Source: Beroe forskalii
Lineage: Eukaryota > Ctenophora > Nuda > Beroida > Beroidae
NCBI GenBank assembly: GCA_011033025.1
Contig: WFMF01000216.1
Span: forward strand, 222,577-286,576
Length of the DNA: 64,000 nucleotides
Direction of reading: 5' to 3'
The translations under genes and the position numbers were made by a program. A model generated the notes under the pieces. It was given only the letters and a program-made list of their open reading frames with translations, had not been told where the DNA came from and made no database searches. Shown here in pieces: positions 3,487 through 53,895 of this stretch. The number at the start of each line of letters is the position of its first letter. Position 1 is the first letter of the stretch.

Positions 3487-3659
3487 ATCCTAATTTTTTC
3501 AGGAACAAATTCTACACCAAGCGATTTTGACTGTTTTCTATAGTTTTTCGCCCAAAAAATCGATCTAACAACTTTCCGGGACTTTCCGGGGTGGGGAAAG
3601 TGCCGAAAAATCGATTTTCAATTGAGGCTACAGCCGACTGACCTGTGAAAAAAAATCGT

Positions 3660-4290
3660 AACTTGGCCCAGGAAGGTCGTAGAGACTTCGTTTTAGGCTT
3701 AAAGCGCAATGGCCATGTTTATATACGACTTGTTAATAAACATATGCCCTAAAATGTTCAGGAACAGAGTTATGGGCGAAAAACTGTTTTTTGGGCACCC
3801 GCGAGACATTGTGGAGGCGATTTTTGGTTTTCGGCCCAGGAGGGTCGTAGAGACTTCGTTTTAGGCTTAAAAGAAGCGCAATGGCCATGTTTATATACGA
3901 CTTGTTAATAAATATATGCCCTAAAATGCTCAGGAACAGAGTTATGGGCGAAAAACTGTTTTTTGGGCACCCGCAAGACATTGTGAAAGCGATTTTTGTA
4001 TCTCGGCCCAGGAAGGTCGCAGAAACTTCGTTTTAGGCTTAAAAGAAGCGCAATAGCCATGTTTATATACGACTTGTAATAAACATATGCCCTAAATGCT
4101 CAGGAACCGAGTTATGGGCGAAAATCAGATTTTTTTGCACCCACGAGACATAGTGGAAGCAATTTTTGTATCTCGCCCAAGAGTCTTGAGTAGAGATTTC
4201 ATTGTGTGCTTAAAATACGCAATGGGCGTGTGTATTATATACTACTTGTTATCAAAGATATGTCCTAAAATGCTTTAGAACAAAGTTATA
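3660..4290 (+). repeat. Left-arm tandem array, ~172-bp units
   Basis: About four units, marked by the words GTCGTAGAGACTTCG, GCGCAATGGCCATG and GAGTTATGGGCGAAAA. The outer units are alike and the inner ones diverge toward the centre of the element. Confidence 0.8.
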
Positions 4291-4899: not shown

Positions 4900-5790
4900 T
4901 TATTCACAAGTCGTACAAGTCCAAAATCAAGCTTCTATGACCTTCCTGGGCCGAAAACAGGTGCCTAAAAACAGTTTTTCGCCCATAACTCGGTTCCTCA
5001 GCATTTTAGGGCATATAATTATTAGCAAGCCGTATATAAACAAAGACCATTTCACTTCTTTTAAGTCCAAAACGAAGTCTCTACGACCTTCATAGGCCAA
5101 GATACAAAAATCGCTTCCACAATGTCTTGCGAGTGCCCAAAAAATAGTTTTTCGCCCATAACTCTGTTCCTGAGCATTTTAGGGCACATGTTTATTAAAA
5201 AGTCCTACATAAGCATGGCCATTGCGCTTCTTTTAAGCCTAATTTAACGAAGTCTCTACGACGTTCCTGGGCCGAGATACAAAATCGCTTCCACAATGTC
5301 TCGCGGGTGCCCAAAAAATCAGTTTTTCGCCCATAACTCTGTTCCTGAGCATTTTAGGGCATATGTTTATTAGCAAGTCGTATATAAACATGGCCATTGC
5401 GCTTCTTTTAAGCCTAAAACGAAGTCTCTACGACCTCCCTGGGCCGAAATACAAAATCGCTTCCACAATGTCTCGTGGGTGCCCAAAAAATCAGTTTTTC
5501 GCCCAAAACTCTGTTCCTGAGCATTTTAGGGCATATGTTTATTAACAAGTCGTATATAAACATGGCCATTGCGCTTCTTTTAAGCCTAAAACGAAGTCTC
5601 TACGACCTCTCTGGGCCGAAATACAAAAATCGCTTCCACAATGTCTCGTTGGGTGCCCAAAAAACAGTTTTTCGCCCATAACTCTGTTCCTGAACATTTT
5701 AGGGCATATGTTTATTAACAAGTCGTATATAAACATGGCCATTGCGCTTCTTTTAAGCTGAAAACGAAGTCTCTACGACCTTCCTGGGCC
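4900..5790 (-). repeat. Right-arm tandem array, ~172-bp units inverted
   Basis: About five units in the opposite orientation to the left arm, marked by CGAAGTCTCTACGACC and CCATAACTCTGTTCCTGA. Adjacent units near the outer end are nearly identical, which points to recent homogenisation. Confidence 0.8.
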
Positions 5791-5983
5791 AAATTACGAA
5801 TTTTCACTGGTCAGTCGGCTGCGCCTCAACTAAAAATCGATTTTTCGGCACTTTCCCCACCCCGGAAAGTCTCGGAAAGTTGCTAGATCGATTTTTTGGG
5901 CAAAAAACTATAGAAAACAGTCAAAATCGCTTGGTGTAGAATTTGTTCCGATTTTGGGCCATTTTCGGCCAGATTTGACTGTA

Positions 5984-44941: not shown

Positions 44942-45050
44942 ACCAACCATGGACCCAAGACAGAATGATCTAGTTGAACAGGCTGCTGAAATGTTGTATG
45001 GACTCATTCATGCCCGCTATATTCTCACTAACAGAGGAATTGCAATGATG
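44942..45050 (+). CDS. CSNK2B: CSNK2B exon with [15 protein letters not shown]
   Basis: Acceptor GTGACAG at 44941, donor ATG|GTATGG at 45051. It codes the strongly conserved helix after the acidic loop. The acceptor is less sure than the others; ACAG at 44960-44963 is an alternative that would shorten the exon by 22 bp. Confidence 0.88.
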
Positions 45051-48000
45051 GTATGGTTATTTTCATTACTTATGGAAACATTGGTTCTTCATGAAATTTC
45101 ATTGATTATTAATGTAATATTTTGTATTTAATTGTTAAATTCATTTCAAAAATTTTTGATTAAATCATGTATACCTAAATGATCTGAGATATCTTGGATT
45201 TTATAATAAGAAGGAAATGCCACATGTGCATGGTACAGCGAAGTTTAATAATAATAAATCAAGAATTAGTTGTATTGAACATATCCTTAGAATTTTATAA
45301 AAATATGCCCTTTCCTGACTCCCTCCCTTTTAGGTCAATGACCTCTCGTCCAAACTCCCATCCAACCCAAATAAGTAAATAGATGCAACCTAAATAGAGT
45401 AATAGCCTTAAATTATCCTAAACACAAATCAGTTTAAACTGTAGATCTGCGTGGTAAATATGCACCCTTAACACACCTCATTATCACATCTTATTTACAC
45501 CGCTGCACTATCACTTAAAAACTCTGATACTCTTGAATGTATCCTAGCGTTATATAATATGTCCCCAATTTAGCTTCTCAGACACTTATCATTTCAATGC
45601 AAGTGAGAGGAATTGCTCGTTATGGTCGCTAATATATATAAAAATATATAATACATAAACCCCACTCTTGTCAAAGATGGCACTGAAATGCTGCAACGTA
45701 GTGTTAGACTCCAGGCAAGCGATCTCGCTTCCAGGAGTTATTATGCTATAGAAGGTGTGACATCTCTGAAGTTACCTCTGTGTGAGAGAGTGGTGTATAT
45801 AATATGTATATATTTATATAATATGGTTTAAATTTCATCAGTACTCAAATGAAACAACATTTAGGATGTCTGTAACTTCGAATTGTGCAATCTTCTGTGG
45901 ATCATTATAGCTAAAAGTCAATGTATATAATATGTATATAATTATATAAGTGTCAGATGAGAGCAAGTATTGCAGTGTATCGAATAATTTCAGGATATGA
46001 AATGGCAGAGTTGATTTATCAACTGACGACTATTATGTATGTTTAATATGTTATTGACATGTATTGAAATGAGTTCGAATTCAGAAATTCGTGGCAATTG
46101 TGCAGGTTTAAAGCCAAACGAGCAAAATCTTAGTAGATAAATAGATAAAACGCTGCCTTGCAGTCAGTTTTAACTCTGGTGTGGTGCAGGACAGCGCGTA
46201 TTTTCTCCAGCTCTAATTTAATGCTGTTTTAACCAACACTTGAATCCTTGGTGCAAGTCCAACGTCTAAATTTAAGTAGTAATCGGTCCCTTCGAAGCGT
46301 TGATTGGGTTATAGTTCAAAAGCCCCGTTTGAATTGGAGGCCAGCCCAAAACCCATTTGCTGGAATATATAAACATGTCATTTTACAATCATTCTGTCCT
46401 TCTTTCAGTTGGAGAAATACCAGAATTCAGAATTTGGTACGTGTATTCGAGTGTTTTGTGAGAACCAGCTCATGATGCCCATCGGTCTGTCTGATCAACC
46501 AGGTAATATTCTATAAGGGATCTTTCACATAATATTACGTGTAACCATCTAGGGGAGGGGGTTCCGAATGATTACGCTACATGTTATTGTAACAAATATA
46601 ACTACTGTAAACTTGGTTACGAGGGGGAGGGGGGGTTAAAATCGGCCAAAATTGATTACATAATATTATGTGAACGATCTCTAAAGCTATAACTAATTCA
46701 AGGTTCAATATTTATGGGTTATATCGTGACAACAATAATGTGAAGCACTGCAGTGTTTATTTTCTAAATTTTCAAAGATTGAAACACGAGACAAGGAAGA
46801 CTCTAAACTGTAAATCGTCACCGGTTACCTTGCAGTTGTAAGACACTCCTTTGTCAAAACTGCGGTGCGGTTTTCTGCACATCAGCAGGTTGTCAAAAGA
46901 GAACGGAGAGGTTTTCGACCCACCGACTTATAAATAGTCCGACTTGAATAGACGATCTCAGCTGTTAAAGCACCCTGTGTGTCTGTAGCTGTGTATGTAT
47001 GTATGTATGTACAGTGTGTGTTGTCCGTTGTGTTACTTTACTTGAGTTGCACAAGGGGCCATCGCTATTGGTAGAATAGAATGACCCAATGAAGTCAAGA
47101 CGAGAATAATTTTGTGGGAAGGTTAAACGTCCAAACTCCAAGCGGATAATATGATAAAAATTCGGCAATAGGGGTTAAGTTTTTTGGTAGGTACCTACTG
47201 CTCTCCTTGTTTTCTGTAATTATATTAGACCAAAGCTCCTCACCAAAAACCGGCACATATTTCTCTTTATCTCTGACTACTGCACCTTAAATACCCTAAT
47301 AAAACACTTGTGTCCTGTTTAACCTGTACCTGTTAGCACTGTGATAACTACCTGCTAAATCCGGATTCCGGACATTTTAACCTTGGAATAATGGCAAATG
47401 ATTATCCTATCTTAGGATATATAATCGATAGTCAGAGTAGTGGGTGCACTCGCACGTAGTTCGCAATGTCATGGTATAAAGGATTCAAGTTAGCGTCACT
47501 TCGTGCCATCAGAGCATGATTTCAGAAGGGCGTCAAGTTATTTTCCAGATATTACCACGTATTCTACATGGATTGATTGAAATGCTCCCAAAACTGATAT
47601 TATAAAATTGTTTCATTGGTACTGTATTTGTTTCATTGCCAAGAAGTTACCACCTCGTGCTGTGATAATTATGACGTCATCGAAACTGCCTATTAACCAT
47701 GCGGACTGATGAACCGTACTTTGACCCTTTAAAAGTTTTAGATGTCTATTTATCACTGATTTATCACCAGCCTTCATTCCATGTGCCAGCGATTTTCTGA
47801 GCACCATGTACATTATGCAATGTATAGTGTATACACTATACAGGATCAGGCAAGGATCTATGTATTATAGACACGGATGAAAAATGGTTCTGTGTTTCTC
47901 TGTATACAATGCCTTCATTCCATGTGCCAGCGATTTCGAGCACCATAAAATGTATACATTATGCAATCAGCAATAAAAATGCGTCAGAGGAGCTGTACAC

Positions 48001-51000
48001 CATACATAACTCATAAAATATACATACATTGTGTATACATTGTACATTGCATAATGTATATTTTGTAGGTGTCAAAACTGCTGTATTCTTGTATTATACA
48101 TCTGTAATGTGCAAATGCTAACTCATGCTCTTTTTACCATTTCACACATCCACCCAGTCTACAACAACACACTCAACAGTACGTCAGTTCAAGGAAAGTT
48201 GACTGCCTGTAGATTAAACTCTGCACGATACAGTCAATTTTCCCAGAACTGACGTACTGTTGATTGCAGAGCTGCTTAGGAACCCACACAAGGCCCAACA
48301 CCACTTTCTTCAGTTTTCCCTGGTCTCTCTTTCCTCCTCTACTCTTCTTCAAGTGTCTCCTTGTCTCCCCTCATCTCTCATCTCTTTCTTTCTAACAATA
48401 TATATATATTACAGTACTAATGACGAACATATATATACAGCTCCTTCAATTATCGCTACTTGAATTAACTCCCTCACTCTCACATACGAGACTATATATA
48501 TATATATATATATATTTTAAAACACAGCAGCAGCAGCAGTAGCAATAGTCATGTTGTGTGACGTCACGATCATACTTCACAATGGTGTGTTAATGATGAT
48601 ATATTTTCACCCACAATATATTATATATAATGCTCAATCTCTAACACATCGTTGTGTTCCATTATATAGCATTGCACAACACACACGGAGTTGCAATTTG
48701 CAAATGCTGGCAACACCGGGGTTCTAGATTTAAAATTAAATATAAAAGTTGGGGATATTTTTCTGGAAATTTCGAACGACACCGGGGTTCTACTAGATTT
48801 AAAATTAAATAGAAAGATGGGGATATTTTCTTGAAATTTCGAACAAAGCAAAGGATCGACCGGGATCAGATTCTCAGCCGAGATTCCGGCAGCACAAATG
48901 GTTTGCCGGAATATGCCGGAATTAATACACTGAAATTTCCAAGTTCCACAGGCACGAATAACCACAACGAGCTGACTTTTTAATGCAAAGTACTTTCAAA
49001 TTTGTGCTGTGCTACTCAGGTCGAGTCTGCGTCATATAATGACCTCATTAATATAGAGTTACTTTTGACGTCCAGGTTATCATCGTGTTAATTCGAGTAT
49101 TTAATCTGTAAAAATGGCAGTAAAGAAAATACAGTCGAGAGTTGAGGTAGTTCATGACGCGTTGGTATATGACCTATACTATATGTCATCATATGTTATC
49201 ATACTATATATGTCATCGTTATACCATGTGCTGTTATATGTATGTCAGTATGTGTGACGTTTGTCTTGTGACATAATATGTATGTATGTATGTGCTATGT
49301 ATTGACGATGAACAAACTGTTGAATTTCAGAAGGTATCTAATGTAAAACCCAACACTGAAGGTACTGTATCTACTTCCTGTCAGCTGTAACCCGTTGGAT
49401 CGTCATGAAATTGACCAATCAGTGCGAGCAGTGAGAGTCAACTCGCACGTGCTGATTCGTCAATATTAAATGGCCCAGTGGGTAAGCTAATTCACAGTCG
49501 ATAGTACCATTAGACGTGGCGTTACTTTTGCTGCATATATATCAGAGGGTAATGCCTAATGGGTGGGTACCCATAACTCACAAGTTACCAAGTTACCCAT
49601 TACTTACCAGTTACCAAGTTACTCACCCATTGCTTACCCATTACTTACCCATAACTTACCAGTTACCAAGTTACTTACCCATTACTTACCCTTTACTTAC
49701 CCATTACTTACCTATTACTTACCCATTACTTACCCTTTACTAACCCTTTACTTACCCTTTACTTACCCAGTTTTCCCACTACTTAAGTTTTCTTCTACCC
49801 ATTTACCCTTTTTACCCATTACTCACCCTTTTCACCCTTTCTTTTTTATCCCCCATTACTTATACAACTTACCAGTTACCAAGTAAGTTCATACCCAGAA
49901 ATTACCCTTTACTTACCCTTTACTTACCCATTACTTACCGTACCCTTTACTTACGCATTACTTACCCATTACTTACCCATTACTTACCCATTACTTACCC
50001 ATTACTTACCCTTTACTTACCCTTTTCTTACCCATAACTTACCCGTTGATTTTATGATATCTCTGTTTTCAGGAGAAAGCATGGTGAAGTTGTACTGTCC
50101 GAAGTGTCAAGATGTCTACGTACCAAAGTCTTCCAGATACCATCATATTGGTGGGTTTTTTAAACTTTGTAGCTGCTCTGAGTTTTAGGCTTGGTATATT
50201 ACAAGTCCACACTAGTTATGTGTAACGAAATGCGGAATAAAATTTTAGTTTTCTTCTGAAATTCAAGTTTTCTTCCACTGGAGTGTTTGGACTTTTTGGT
50301 AGGACGCACTTTAGTAACCACACTTTTGCTGATGGTTCGTTTATGTTAGAGCATTTCCAGCCATGTCGTACGCGTAAAATATGACATAAGAAAATACCTG
50401 AAATTATTTGATAGTACTTCAGTTGTTACGTATTAGAATATCAAACTTAACCTCTATAAATATCAAATATAACTCAATATTTAAGTGTTTCTGTATTGTA
50501 ATGCTAGTTTGCCCCCGCACTTTCTATCTCAACCAATCAGCATACAGTATCCTACAAATCCTGTGTTCTGATTGGTGGAACCCCAGAGTGCTTTGGGTAC
50601 GATGTATCATTCTTTATTTCAGACGGCGCGTACTTTGGGACGAGCTTTCCTCACATGCTGTTCATGGTACATCCAGAGTACAGACCTAAGCCTTCAGCTA
50701 GTTCATTTGTTCCAAGGTATGTACAGACCTACGTCATCAGCTAGTTCATTTGTTCCAAGGTATGTACAGACCTAAGCCATCAGCTAGTTCATTTGTTCCA
50801 AGGTATGTACAGACCTAAGCCTTCAGCTAGTTCATTTGTTCCAAGGTATGTACAGACCTAAGCCTTCAGCTAGTTCATTTGTTCCAAGGTATGTACAGAC
50901 CTAAGCCTTCAGCTAGTTCATTTGTTCCAAGGTATGTACAGACCTAAGCCATCAGCTAGTTCATTTGTTCCAAGGTATGTACAGACCTAAGCCTTCAGCT

Positions 51001-53457
51001 AGTTCATTTGTTCCAAGGTATGTACAGACCTATCCCATCAGCTAGTTCATTTGTTCCAAGGTATGTACTGGTTATATTAATCATTGGCTAGGCCTAGCCG
51101 AGTTGTATTTTCAATTAGATTTCCCCTGAAATTGTAATAAAACATTCGCCAGCTTAATTGCTACTTACAAATCTGGTTTGATCCCAGAAATCAATCTGAA
51201 TTATTGTGGGTTCTAAACAGCTCGTCGAATCGTAGAATACTTTTCTCTGTTGCAACCACTCGACATTTCATAAACCATTAAATTCACACATTACCTCTCC
51301 AAGCTTTTCATATATCATTAACGCACTACCACAAAGTGCAAAGAAATCCATTATAAAAGCGTCTTGACGTAGGTTTGACTTGCGTGTGAATGGAGGCCCT
51401 TTGTAAGTGTCAAATAGTAGCGTGTTCCTTACAACTTTTAGTACATGTTGGGGGGCGACAACACTACCTGTATTTTTGGCGGACATTGTGGTGTTATATT
51501 TGCTGAGTGGTGTTATATTTGCTGAGGGCAGCCCCCAACTCAATGGTTTTAAATGGTGGATATGAGATGTCTCCAATATGGTGTTAGATTTAGGGGTGTT
51601 TGATGGGGGGGGGGTAATTTTGGGGGATTGTGACTGGAATCCCCCCACCCCTTCAGCTAATTTTAACTACCTTGAACTGCCATGGAGTAAAAGTGAATGT
51701 GCCTTAATTCAAGAAAATAAGGAGAAAAATTCATCCCTTTGTTGTAATTTATCTCTTTCTTGTAATCACTCTGGTGTTGAATTAATGGTGTGTCACTTTC
51801 ATTAAAACACTCGTGCTGTCTTTCAAATTGCCAAGTACCAACATCGCCAATTATAACTATCATCCCCATTTATACTAAACGAAGATAATGTAATGTAACA
51901 TCTTGATATAAACGTTTGCATTGCGTCACAGATCATTTGAACTAGTACCAAGTCATATATAGCAGTGCGCTTGGAACAGTGACAAAGAAGTAACTCTTGA
52001 TTAATTGGCTGATACGTTAGTCACGTGACTTGTAGACGTGATTTTATTGGTTCGCAGGACTATGAAATTCACGTTCTCATTGGCCGAGGAGATCACGTGA
52101 TTTGTCTCCCCGGTGCGTTTAATAAGTTACACATAAGGAGCGTACGTTACTTACACACGAACTCGCCAATTTCATGATTTGTTCCGTACCAATTTGAAAG
52201 GTGTTTGGTCACAGTTAAGACAATATAAGATGGATAAGAATATGTTCACATACGTGTAATATCATATTAGTTTCGTAATGGTCAACTTTTACTATTCACA
52301 TTATCCATGGTAGATAATATTGTGATTTATGGTTAGTTTGACCAGTGGTGGGTGCGTTGGTAGGTTGTTATCAGGCAAGGGCATGATTGCATTCAAGTTA
52401 CAAAGAGACCTGAGTTCTAAATTAGTCCTAGTACTGGAGTAGTTTCAGTTCTAGAGAAGATTTTAGTCTGAAAAAGTACTGCGACTTAGCGACTTGATAA
52501 ACTAATAAAGCTATGACACTAGGGATATTCAATCTGGAGTTAGTATTGAGAATTCAATAATCTAACAAAAAGCGAAAATTAACAGATGATTTTTGACTTT
52601 TGTCGCAAAGCTATGAATAATTAAAATAAATTAAAAAAGCTACGAATAATTCGGTTCCTCTGGCGTGATATACCAGTTATTCTATGTGTACTGTGTGCAT
52701 TCCAGTTTTCCCGGCACAGCTCTTCCAAAGCTTAAAATTTATCGATAATCTATACCTGTTTTACGTGTAACAGAACCCTTTGGGCCGTTCATATATTATG
52801 AAATCATCAAGTTTTGACATCACTTGCTCACGATATATCATACAGCAGTTTAATTAGAAAACTGCGCCAGTTCCAAGTTACATAATAATGTGTGATCGAT
52901 ACTGTAATTAGTGTACTTCTGTAATATTCAACTGTCTACATTTGCGCTGTTATAATTAGTCTAGGGTACACTAGATGATGTTTACACAGGTAATGTAATC
53001 CCGTGTTTTCATTTACGTAACCGTAGTTTTTTGTCACAGGAAGTCACCAAATTTCGTAAGGGTCTTCATTTCTGTAAATTTTGTAGCCCTCGCCGCGCGA
53101 TATTGCTGCGCGCAGTGGTTTGCGCGCTATTTGTTAATTACACTGTGTAACGCAACGTGAGGTCATATCCCGTCTAGAACATTTTCAACGCTCCACAGCC
53201 AGAGAATTATAATCTTGTTATCGGGAATATTGGAAGTCAAGTGTCAACCCTGATACACTATTGCACCAATTTTCTTCACTGTCAATCCACACTTCACTTT
53301 GACACCCATTCATCAAAATGCCCACTTCCCTTTTCACATTTCCACTTGACAAAACCTGTCTCATTTCAGATTGTACGGATTCAAGATACACCCGTTAGCC
53401 TACCAGTTACAAGTGGAGGCTTCAGTTCACTGGAAGGGTGAGTCAGGTAAACCTTAA
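44942..53457 (+). CDS. CSNK2B: Casein kinase 2 regulatory subunit beta, 5' partial, five exons
   Basis: Exons 44942-45050, 46409-46502, 50073-50150, 50623-50716 and 53370-53457 join in phase and code the C-terminal two thirds of CK2 beta. Visible marks: [20 protein letters not shown], the zinc ribbon that makes the dimer (C-x4-C in [15 protein letters not shown] in VKLYCPKC), [27 protein letters not shown] and [15 protein letters not shown]2 beta dimerises and docks two catalytic alpha subunits of this Ser/Thr kinase. The C-terminal tail after the helix differs from the vertebrate one: [10 protein letters not shown] then stop, if the last exon is read through. All five acceptors and donors follow GT-AG. 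Introns hold a MITE, a hairpin and three minisatellites. The N-terminal exons are not seen. Confidence 0.93.
46409..46502 (+). CDS. CSNK2B: CSNK2B exon with first half of zinc ribbon
   Basis: 94 bp, acceptor TTCTTTCAG, donor CAG|GTAATA, phase 0 to 1. It codes [20 protein letters not shown] and [14 protein letters not shown] starts 14 bp downstream of the donor. Confidence 0.95.
46517..46681. mobile_element. GGGATCGTTCACA MITE, copy 2 (TAA duplication)
   Basis: Inverted ends GGGATCTTTCACATAATATT and GTGAACGATCTC, flanked by TAA on both sides (46514-46516, 46682-46684). It sits in the CSNK2B intron very close to the 5' splice site. Confidence 0.85.
46685..48173. other. CSNK2B intron, duplicated blocks and TATACA palindromes
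   Basis: A phrase CTTCATTCCATGTGCCAGCG is present at about 47773 and 47911. Around 47815-48060 are several short palindromes such as GTATACACTATAC and GTATACATT. TATG microsatellites occur near 46990. No coding exon is seen between the MITE and the hairpin. Confidence 0.5.
48174..48262 (+). ncRNA. Pre-miRNA-like hairpin or short foldback MITE
   Basis: An 89-nt inverted repeat: a 17-bp perfect stem (CAACAGTACGTCAGTTC and complement), a 2-nt internal loop, then GGAAA/TTTCC, a G-T pair and TTGACTG/CAGTCAA, closed by a loop of about 24 nt. Size and shape suit an intronic microRNA precursor in the sense direction of CSNK2B. The same shape could come from a small MITE; no clear target duplication is seen. 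Confidence 0.4.
48484..48515. repeat. (TA)n microsatellite and CAG run
   Basis: A TA run of about 12 units, followed by CAGCAGCAGCAG at about 48527. Confidence 0.8.
48720..48845. repeat. ~60-bp tandem duplication in CSNK2B intron
   Basis: The phrase ACCGGGGTTCTAGATTTAAA with its following block occurs twice (48715 and 48781). The minus-strand frame across it repeats itself and is not a gene. Confidence 0.7.
49566..50044 (+). repeat. 11-bp CCCATTACTTA minisatellite next to a CSNK2B acceptor
   Basis: About 40 copies of TTACCCATTAC-type units with slippage to TTACCCTTTAC and TTACCAAG. It ends about 30 bp before the acceptor of the exon at 50073, so part of the intron's pyrimidine-rich approach comes from the array. 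Confidence 0.85.
50073..50150 (+). CDS. CSNK2B: CSNK2B exon with VKLYCPKC
   Basis: 78 bp, acceptor CTGTTTTCAG, donor TTG|GTGGGT, phase 1 to 1. It codes [20 protein letters not shown] and RYHH, the second half of the zinc ribbon. Confidence 0.95.
50623..50716 (+). CDS. CSNK2B: CSNK2B exon whose 3' end founded a minisatellite
   Basis: 94 bp, acceptor TTTATTTCAG, donor CCAAG|GTATGT. It codes [20 protein letters not shown] and [10 protein letters not shown]. The phase fits the next exon at 53370. The last 37 bp plus the first 6 bp of the intron are the unit of the repeat that follows. Confidence 0.95.
50717..51060 (+). repeat. 43-bp exon-derived minisatellite, eight units each with a splice donor
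   Basis: Eight head-to-tail units of exactly 43 bp. Each is GTATGT plus 37 bp that match the end of the preceding exon (ACAGACCTAAGCCTTCAGC and so on, ending TTTGTTCCAAG). Units differ by few bases, mostly in the middle (AAGCCTTCAG, AAGCCATCAG, ACGTCATCAG, ATCCCATCAG). After the last unit the intron continues GTATGTACTGG. Confidence 0.97.
51284..51483 (-). CDS. Possible antisense first exon in CSNK2B intron
   Basis: On the minus strand ATG at 51483-51485 opens a frame of 72 codons with protein-like composition ([57 protein letters not shown]). A plausible donor (GAG|GTAATG) lies at about 51292. Upstream codons in frame to 51648 look like simple sequence. I do not recognise the family and see no following exon, so it could be chance. 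Confidence 0.25.
51490..53369. other. Rest of CSNK2B intron with two E-boxes and a decayed MITE
   Basis: CACGTG occurs at 52022-52027 and 52094-52099, in GTCACGTGAC and GATCACGTGATT contexts. At about 52790-52910 a decayed relative of the GGGATCGTTCACA MITE (GGGCCGTTCATATATTATG) is suggested. A CpG-rich bit lies at 53090-53135. Confidence 0.4.
53370..53457 (+). CDS. CSNK2B: CSNK2B last visible exon
   Basis: Acceptor TCATTTCAG. It codes [20 protein letters not shown] and WKGESGKP, then TAA at 53455-53457 if read through. A good donor (AAGG|GTGAGT) at 53438 is an alternative end that would splice to an unseen exon. Known CK2 beta proteins end a short way after this point, so both are possible. 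Confidence 0.85.
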
Positions 53458-53466
53458 CACGCAGGT

Positions 53467-53895
53467 CAAGGCTAAACCCGCACTGTTCAAGGCTAAACTC
53501 ACACTGGTCAAGGCTAAACCCGCACTACTCAAGGCTAAACCAGCACGAGTCAAGTTTTAACCCGCACTGTTCAAGGCTAAACCCGCATTGGTCAAGGCTA
53601 AACCCGCACTCGTCAAGGCTAAACTCGCACTGGTCAAGGCTAAACTCGCACTGGTCAAGGCTAAACCCGCACTTTCCAAGGCTAAACTCGCACTGTTCAA
53701 GGCTAAACCCGCACTGGTCAAGGCTAAACTTGCACTGTTTAAGGCTAAACCCGCACTGGTCAAGTTTAAACCCGCACTGTTCTAATCTAAACCCGCACTT
53801 TCCAAGGCTAAACCCGCACTGTTCTAGGCTTAACCCGCACAGTTCAAGGCTAAACCCGCACTGGTTAAGGCTAAACCCGCAACTTCTAAGCAGTA
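53467..53895 (+). repeat. 21-bp minisatellite after the CSNK2B stop
   Basis: About 20 units of 21 bp (AAGGCTAAACCCGCACTGGT, variants with CTGTT and CTTTCC). Because 21 is a multiple of three, long repetitive frames arise on both strands (for example GFSLDQC heptads); these are not genes. The array begins 10 bp past the stop, so it would lie in the 3' UTR or next intron. Confidence 0.92.

Follow-up and report, generated by a model that had tools for sequence, protein, structure and literature searches.

The window analysed here is a stretch of 64,000 nt at the end of contig C266 (222577-286576) in the 216-Mb, 1134-contig assembly of the ctenophore Beroe forskalii. It carries five exons of a gene for the casein kinase II beta chain (CK2-beta; CSNK2B or CK2B), one of which ends in a tandem array of its own splice donor (Table 1). 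All five exons are open and have GT/AG borders. The five joined exons matched Pfam CK_II_beta at 6.5e-53 and the PDB casein kinase II beta chain 1jwh_C at 6.9e-79, which bears out the assignment of the array exon to CSNK2B in an earlier, sequence-only reading of this DNA. The joined product gave 2203 protein matches, and the top match was from Mnemiopsis leidyi, with 96% identity over 97% of the query. The CxxxxC and CPKC cysteine pairs of the CK_II_beta domain, which we take to be zinc-binding, were present and aligned to 1jwh_C.

Family and protein searches of the 216-Mb assembly found no second CK2-beta locus, the remaining matches having E values of 0.9 or worse. Residues 1-72 at the N-terminus gave no tblastn match in the window or genome-wide. 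The genome-wide search for these residues was run without a positive control of its own, although a companion search did recover other exons of this protein from matches of 25-41 residues. A complete CK2-beta gene that includes the N-terminal part was not found. The contig runs 267 kb upstream of the first CK2-beta exon located, yet the N-terminal ~72 codons are absent. As the assembly lacks its N-terminal exons, the function of this CK2B copy is putative.

Table 1. Positions of the CK2-beta exons and array features in the window, and junction arrays read in the assembly
Feature	Position	Strand	Unit or border	Remark or match
CK2-beta exon	44943-45050	+		start uncertain; ends placed by reading
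CK2-beta exon	46409-46502	+		ends placed by reading
CK2-beta exon	50073-50150	+		ends placed by reading
CK2-beta exon with array	50623-50716	+	ends ...SSFVPR at donor 1	94 nt; the unit takes in its last 35-39 bp
Nine head-to-tail units	50678-51064	+	43 bp; consensus GTACAGACCTAAGCCTTCAGCTAGTTCATTTGTTCCAAGGTAT	
Donor 1	50717-50722	+	GTATGT	donors 2-9 each 43 bp on; last starts 51061
First of eight candidate in-frame micro-exons	50727-50759	+	33 nt	candidate from sequence only; last is 51028-51060
In-frame TAG	50742-50744	+		reached from any of donors 2-9, also upon intron retention
Closing GTAC	51065-51068	+	same four bases as unit start	exon/intron microhomology
Next CK2-beta exon	53370-53437	+	end set by G/GTGAGT donor	in frame with donor 1
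Donor array, CK2B			43 bp	Pfam CK_II_beta 6.5e-53
Donor array, citrate synthase			46 bp; KFWE/GTAAGT	Pfam 1.5e-10; PDB 1.8e-27
Donor array, WWE-domain gene			49 bp	Pfam 2.5e-16
Donor array, plexin			29 bp; AIKQQ/GTATGT	Pfam 2e-27, two exons joined at donor 1
Donor array, CLU			28 bp	Pfam 7.6e-6
Donor array, NEK-like kinase			46/41 bp	Pfam 6e-12 over two joined exons; best PDB match NEK1 1.9e-18
Donor array	C110:1.042M		22 bp	open frame and splice sites only; Pfam absent or below cut-off
Donor array	C1:1.7535M		about 46 bp	open frame and splice sites only; Pfam absent or below cut-off
Donor array	C209		43 bp	open frame and splice sites only; Pfam absent or below cut-off
Donor array	C209		56 bp	open frame and splice sites only; Pfam absent or below cut-off
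Acceptor array, dynein heavy chain C-terminus				2.9e-16, above cut-off
Acceptor array, PDZ gene				1.4e-7, above cut-off
Acceptor arrays (two)				open frame only

The donor array of the CK2-beta gene

The array starts within the exon and extends into the intron, and each unit has a 5' splice-site consensus. Tandem Repeats Finder placed the repeat at 50678-51068, with a period of 43, 9.1 copies, 96% matches, 0% indels and a score of 726. The donors of all nine units are identical (CCAAG/GTATGT, the slash marking the exon/intron border). All nine occurrences of the donor string CCAAGGTATGT in the window fall inside the array, and its reverse complement is absent from the window. Exon and intron share GTAC at the unit join, so that the exon contributes 35-39 bp to the unit and the intron 4-8 bp. 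The sequence-only reading had described eight extra units, making nine donors with the exon's own copy, and had divided the unit into 37 bp of exon and 6 bp of intron. Its coordinates were off by 2 bp, its division falls within the range given here, and its observation of the donor array is confirmed in detail.

The differences between units are confined to columns 12, 13, 14 and 16 of the 43, the chance of such a tight span being 0.0014. This clustering may reflect homogenisation, a local burst of mutation or constraint. A search of the array DNA against the whole assembly matched no second place. Beyond the last unit, the intron continues with ~2.3 kb of unrelated sequence up to its own acceptor before 53370.

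Splicing of donor 1 to position 53370 gives the conserved CK2-beta protein, and donor 1 is the sole one of the nine to do so. The claim that the later donors cannot yield a normal protein was correct, since donors 2-9 each run into the same TAG. U1 pairing rates donor 1 as a good donor. With a pairing energy of -8.2 kcal/mol it is weaker than three of the gene's four further donors (-8.4, -8.4 and -10.1) and stronger than the remaining one (-5.0). Among the 3679 GT sites on the + strand of the window, 59 score as high as donor 1 or higher, a number that includes donor 1 and its copies. Ten U1 genes were found in the assembly, and the three 5' ends inspected read ATACTTACCTG.

Junction arrays elsewhere in the assembly

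The whole assembly was scanned for three AGGTAWGT motifs at 20-50 bp spacing, with the reversed motif as the control. The scan gave 755 triples against 65 for the reversed motif, and the single motifs were equally common (17,185 against 16,802). Triples of CAGGTAAGT numbered 175 against 13 in the control. For the acceptor motif TTTTCAGG, 478 triples were found against 24, both being raw match counts without a single-motif baseline. Counted as arrays, the matches listed for C1 to C247 hold 11 donor and 10 control arrays. The donor arrays in this range are longer (100 against 24 matches listed), and several of them are not at exons. By our reading, the 65 control matches fall into about 32 arrays, 12 of them belonging to one dispersed repeat family. 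We considered whether donor arrays are more numerous than chance (11.6-fold by match count) and dropped the proposal on the count of 11 against 10. We claim only greater length and no greater number of arrays, because of these C1-C247 lists.

Thirteen of the scanned donor-motif arrays were read, namely 10 of the 11 AGGTAWGT arrays among the places listed (C247:1.434M was left out) and all three added by CAGGTAAGT. Seven of them are exon tails, and six lie at no recognised exon (C1:1.948M, C110:642k, C122, C181, C281:340k and C247:2.2275M). The CK2B, C209b and CLU arrays were located by routes other than the donor-motif scans. Together with the seven scanned exon tails they make ten donor-junction arrays, each joining an exon tail to a 5' splice site, of which nine lie beyond CK2B. 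A Pfam match above the curated cut-off was obtained for six of the ten. For the three genes in which the exons on either side of the array were joined at the outermost site (CK2B, plexin and the kinase), that site gives the conserved frame.

The exon of the NEK-like kinase ends at C248:400,080 and is followed by a ~15-kb intron (C248:400081-415280) with donor repeats at both ends. The part of this intron that was read comprises 1.9 kb, and triples are listed at 400,078-401,127 and 412,219-415,233, on either side of an unread stretch. The anatomy suggests that this ~15-kb intron grew from a very short intron.

Further repeats were seen at several of these loci. Two exons on C209 (L056 139-420 and 1568-1733), ~1.2 kb apart and perhaps of one gene, both bear donor arrays, whose units are 56 bp and 43 bp long. 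The first of these exons has a weak Piezo match (E 0.022, below the cut-off), and the C209b exon matched nothing in the PDB. On C173 (L062 1-255 and 342-725), the donor array of the CLU exon is 28 bp x 13.9, and the preceding 38-bp x 6.7 array may span the acceptor (CCTCAG/CACCTCAG). At the plexin locus on C160 (L055 2820-3300), further arrays with units of 31, 38 and 42 bp lie behind a later exon and may start at its donor. The C122 array (C122:285.9-287.6k, L054) is 43 bp x 39 with TTGCTCAG/GTAAGT-like units, and no exon was recognised before it.

Four arrays are mirror images of the donor arrays. They consist of an intron tail, a 3' splice site and an exon head, they end on an open exon, and their last acceptor borders that exon. 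Nine of the 12 acceptor-motif arrays among the places listed were read (C10 and two on C200 were left out). Four of the nine are exon heads, one is the CLU donor array, and four are not exon heads or are unclear (C110:496k, C153, C157 and C194).

Origin of the arrays and choice of splice site

Our best explanation is that the CK2B array, in a genome rich in minisatellites, is one of a recurrent class of them that arose by duplication of a splice junction, expanded, and are tolerated because splicing uses the outermost site. We give this explanation a probability of roughly 0.7. We infer both the mutational steps and the use of the outermost site in the cell. A tandem duplication would have occurred over the existing exon/intron boundary, between GAGTAC of the exon and GTATGTAC at the start of the intron. 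Unequal exchange or slippage would later have lengthened the array. Such arrays would survive since the spliceosome would pick the outermost site, which is the first donor in donor arrays and the last acceptor in acceptor arrays. Since genes with no relation to one another have the same anatomy on their exon edges, a general process of duplication, combined with tolerance by splicing, is indicated.

The joins between units are consistent with a duplication at short shared sequences. The microhomology at four clean joins is 4, 6, 2 and 2 bp, with a sum of 14 against 2.6 expected (P about 2e-5), in a test that covered four arrays, was set up after the joins had been seen, used the unmutated CK2B unit and left out the WWE array. 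This supports the proposal, made from the window alone, that the duplication began at the shared GTAC. The intron part of the unit is about 4-16 bp in the ten donor arrays, and 0 of 200,000 draws from a uniform null were as low, the lengths having been entered by hand. The intron part may be this short because of microhomology with the donor itself.

In human pairs of 5' sites of near-equal strength, exon definition favours the upstream member and intron definition the downstream one (PMC9225289). For all events before strength matching, the same study has the downstream 5' site favoured at ~60% (PMC9225289). RNA-binding proteins can push 5' site choice in either direction (PMC5585400). The first donor of CK2B would be expected to win because the flanking introns of the array exon are 472 nt and 2.65 kb long. 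In the kinase, only 53 nt separate the last donor from the acceptor. Intron definition would favour that donor, so that simple exon definition is maybe not the whole rule. Recursive steps or first-come use may be needed in the kinase case.

In a more general form, splice junctions would be a recurrent birthplace of minisatellites, and introns would grow by amplifying their own splice sites. The outermost-site rule would make this tolerable by choosing the shortest exon among identical competitors. We hold this general form tentatively, at somewhat less than even odds.

It is also possible that junctions, chiefly donors, are hot spots of minisatellite birth, for example through transcription-linked breaks or through U1 or R-loop effects. 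The match counts favour this, with 755 triples against 65 despite equal single motifs, 175 against 13 for CAGGTAAGT and 478 against 24 for acceptors, and so does the short intron part across the ten donor arrays, with lengths entered by hand. The array counts do not, since C1 to C247 holds 11 donor against 10 control arrays among the matches listed, the donor arrays being longer and not clearly more numerous. Preferential birth of arrays at donors is unproven, and we consider such hot spots possible but rather improbable.

Stepwise (recursive) splicing, in which units are removed singly or the unit border acts as acceptor and then as donor, seems unlikely as an account of these arrays. In many arrays the unit border reads AG/GT, so that each unit opens with GT, closes with AG and could itself be removed, with the mRNA left unchanged. 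The units of CK2B, the kinase and plexin start and finish in this way, and the CK2B unit has TTCATTTGTTCC ahead of AAG/GT. Stepwise removal would account for tolerance in the kinase intron, and fission yeast introns over tandem AGGT units are reported (PMC4974935). However, the frequency of AG/GT is biased, since it lies within the search motif, and 43 nt would be a very short intron. The C209b unit ends in TG, so the mechanism cannot be general.

The sequence-only reading had also suggested that the extra donors act as a decoy or tune CSNK2B output. A share of transcripts would then reach the TAG and be degraded, and copy number would set the level of CK2-beta. The nine donors are identical in their flanking bases and donors 2-9 share one stop, as such a device would have it. 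The main period is divisible by 3 in 0 of 14 junction arrays (chance 0.003), as if in-frame leakage were selected against, in a pattern that was noticed after the first five arrays and that has exceptions among the minor unit variants, for example the 39-bp one of the kinase. Periods that are not multiples of 3 fit a leaky use of inner donors that is cleared by nonsense-mediated decay, which is a hint only. A device specific to CK2 is hard to reconcile with arrays of the same kind on the exon edges of genes unrelated to it. The tuning or decoy role is therefore unsupported, and we consider it quite unlikely.

An assembly artefact or a dead gene copy would fit the absence of the N-terminal ~72 codons from the assembly, and is very unlikely on the remaining evidence. 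Against a dead copy stand the five open exons with GT/AG borders, the 96% identity to the Mnemiopsis protein over 97% of the length, and the searches of the assembly, in which no alternative working CK2-beta copy was found and the remaining matches had E values of 0.9 or worse. Against an artefact, similar arrays lie on the junctions of further genes. The worry about assembly error is lessened further because the units differ among themselves and an assembler has no reason to put repeats on splice junctions.

A tandem micro-exon cassette adding 11-residue repeats to CK2-beta is scarcely credible: units 2-9 each hold a stop-free, in-frame 33-nt segment between ACAG and the donor (ACAG/ACC...CCAAG/GT), but its acceptor GTATGTACAG is weak by eye and lacks the usual adjacent polypyrimidine tract, the Mnemiopsis protein shows no insert, and 33 = 43-10 is a one-in-three coincidence. 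The TTCAG micro-exon conceived earlier does exist as a short version, of 19 nt by our reading instead of the 17-18 bp given for it.

Comparison with known systems

The closest precedent is the donor minisatellite of human IFI6, which has a 12-bp unit. The minisatellite of human 6-16 (IFI6/G1P3; Turri, Cuin and Porter 1995) supplies multiple splice donors, and two downstream repeat units are reported to act as donors to give three mRNA species (PMC4526556). The CK2B array resembles it in running from exon to intron and in having a 5' splice-site consensus in every unit, both of which are known here from the DNA sequence. CK2B differs from IFI6 in its 43-bp unit with a long exon tail and in later donors that would truncate the protein. 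In the ctenophore, moreover, several genes show the pattern, and it is seen at acceptors as well.

In the Rogers model, introns are gained when segments containing AGGT are duplicated in tandem, with cases described for potato RdRp, vertebrate ATP2A1 and fission yeast (PMC4974935). The likeness is that a tandem duplication repeats AG/GT and the peptide is unchanged. In contrast, the ctenophore arrays lengthen a pre-existing intron with a distant acceptor of its own, and no new intron is needed. Intron gain would give an intron made of a duplicated exon segment, whereas the CK2B intron holds ~2.3 kb of other sequence. Under the exon- and intron-centric proximity rules for competing splice sites, long introns and sites of equal strength should lead to splicing at the site nearest across the exon (PMC9225289). 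They concern human site pairs, whereas nine equal sites stand in the ctenophore CK2B gene and many more in the kinase. The full-text literature that was searched, subscription papers being outside its scope, held no account of junction-spanning arrays that recur across a genome.

The set of arrays is more interesting than the CK2B locus by itself. Identical serial donors or acceptors cancel splice-site strength, so each of these genes directly pits the first site against the last, and the arrays are a natural test of how cells pick among identical splice sites. According to a comparative study, bilaterian ancestors moved toward more exon definition (PMC6142364). Arrays persisting on ctenophore core genes would bear on the age of exon-centred recognition. 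If the outermost-site rule is true, one of the earliest animal lineages already had a robust exon-centred choice of sites, and the array genes would be ready-made experiments on that choice. The arrays also show a simple way for introns to lengthen with the protein untouched.

Tandem Repeats Finder classes 13% of the genome of the ctenophore Hormiphora as repeats (PMC8527503). The junction arrays share head-to-tail units and mutational decay with ordinary minisatellites, and they differ from them in straddling an exon boundary and copying a splice site. The window holds other tandem repeats. At 49593-50044, a short distance before the CK2-beta exon at 50073, lies an 11-bp minisatellite of the TTACCCATTAC family. 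Many of its units read TTACTTACC, which gives GGTAAGTAA on the minus strand and is donor-like in antisense. A 21-bp minisatellite of 19.9 copies (53464-53881) begins ~26 bp past the exon at 53370-53437, in the start of the intron, and does not span the donor. A 172-bp satellite unit occurs at 3658-4289 and 4967-5794, in opposite orientations and ~0.7 kb apart.
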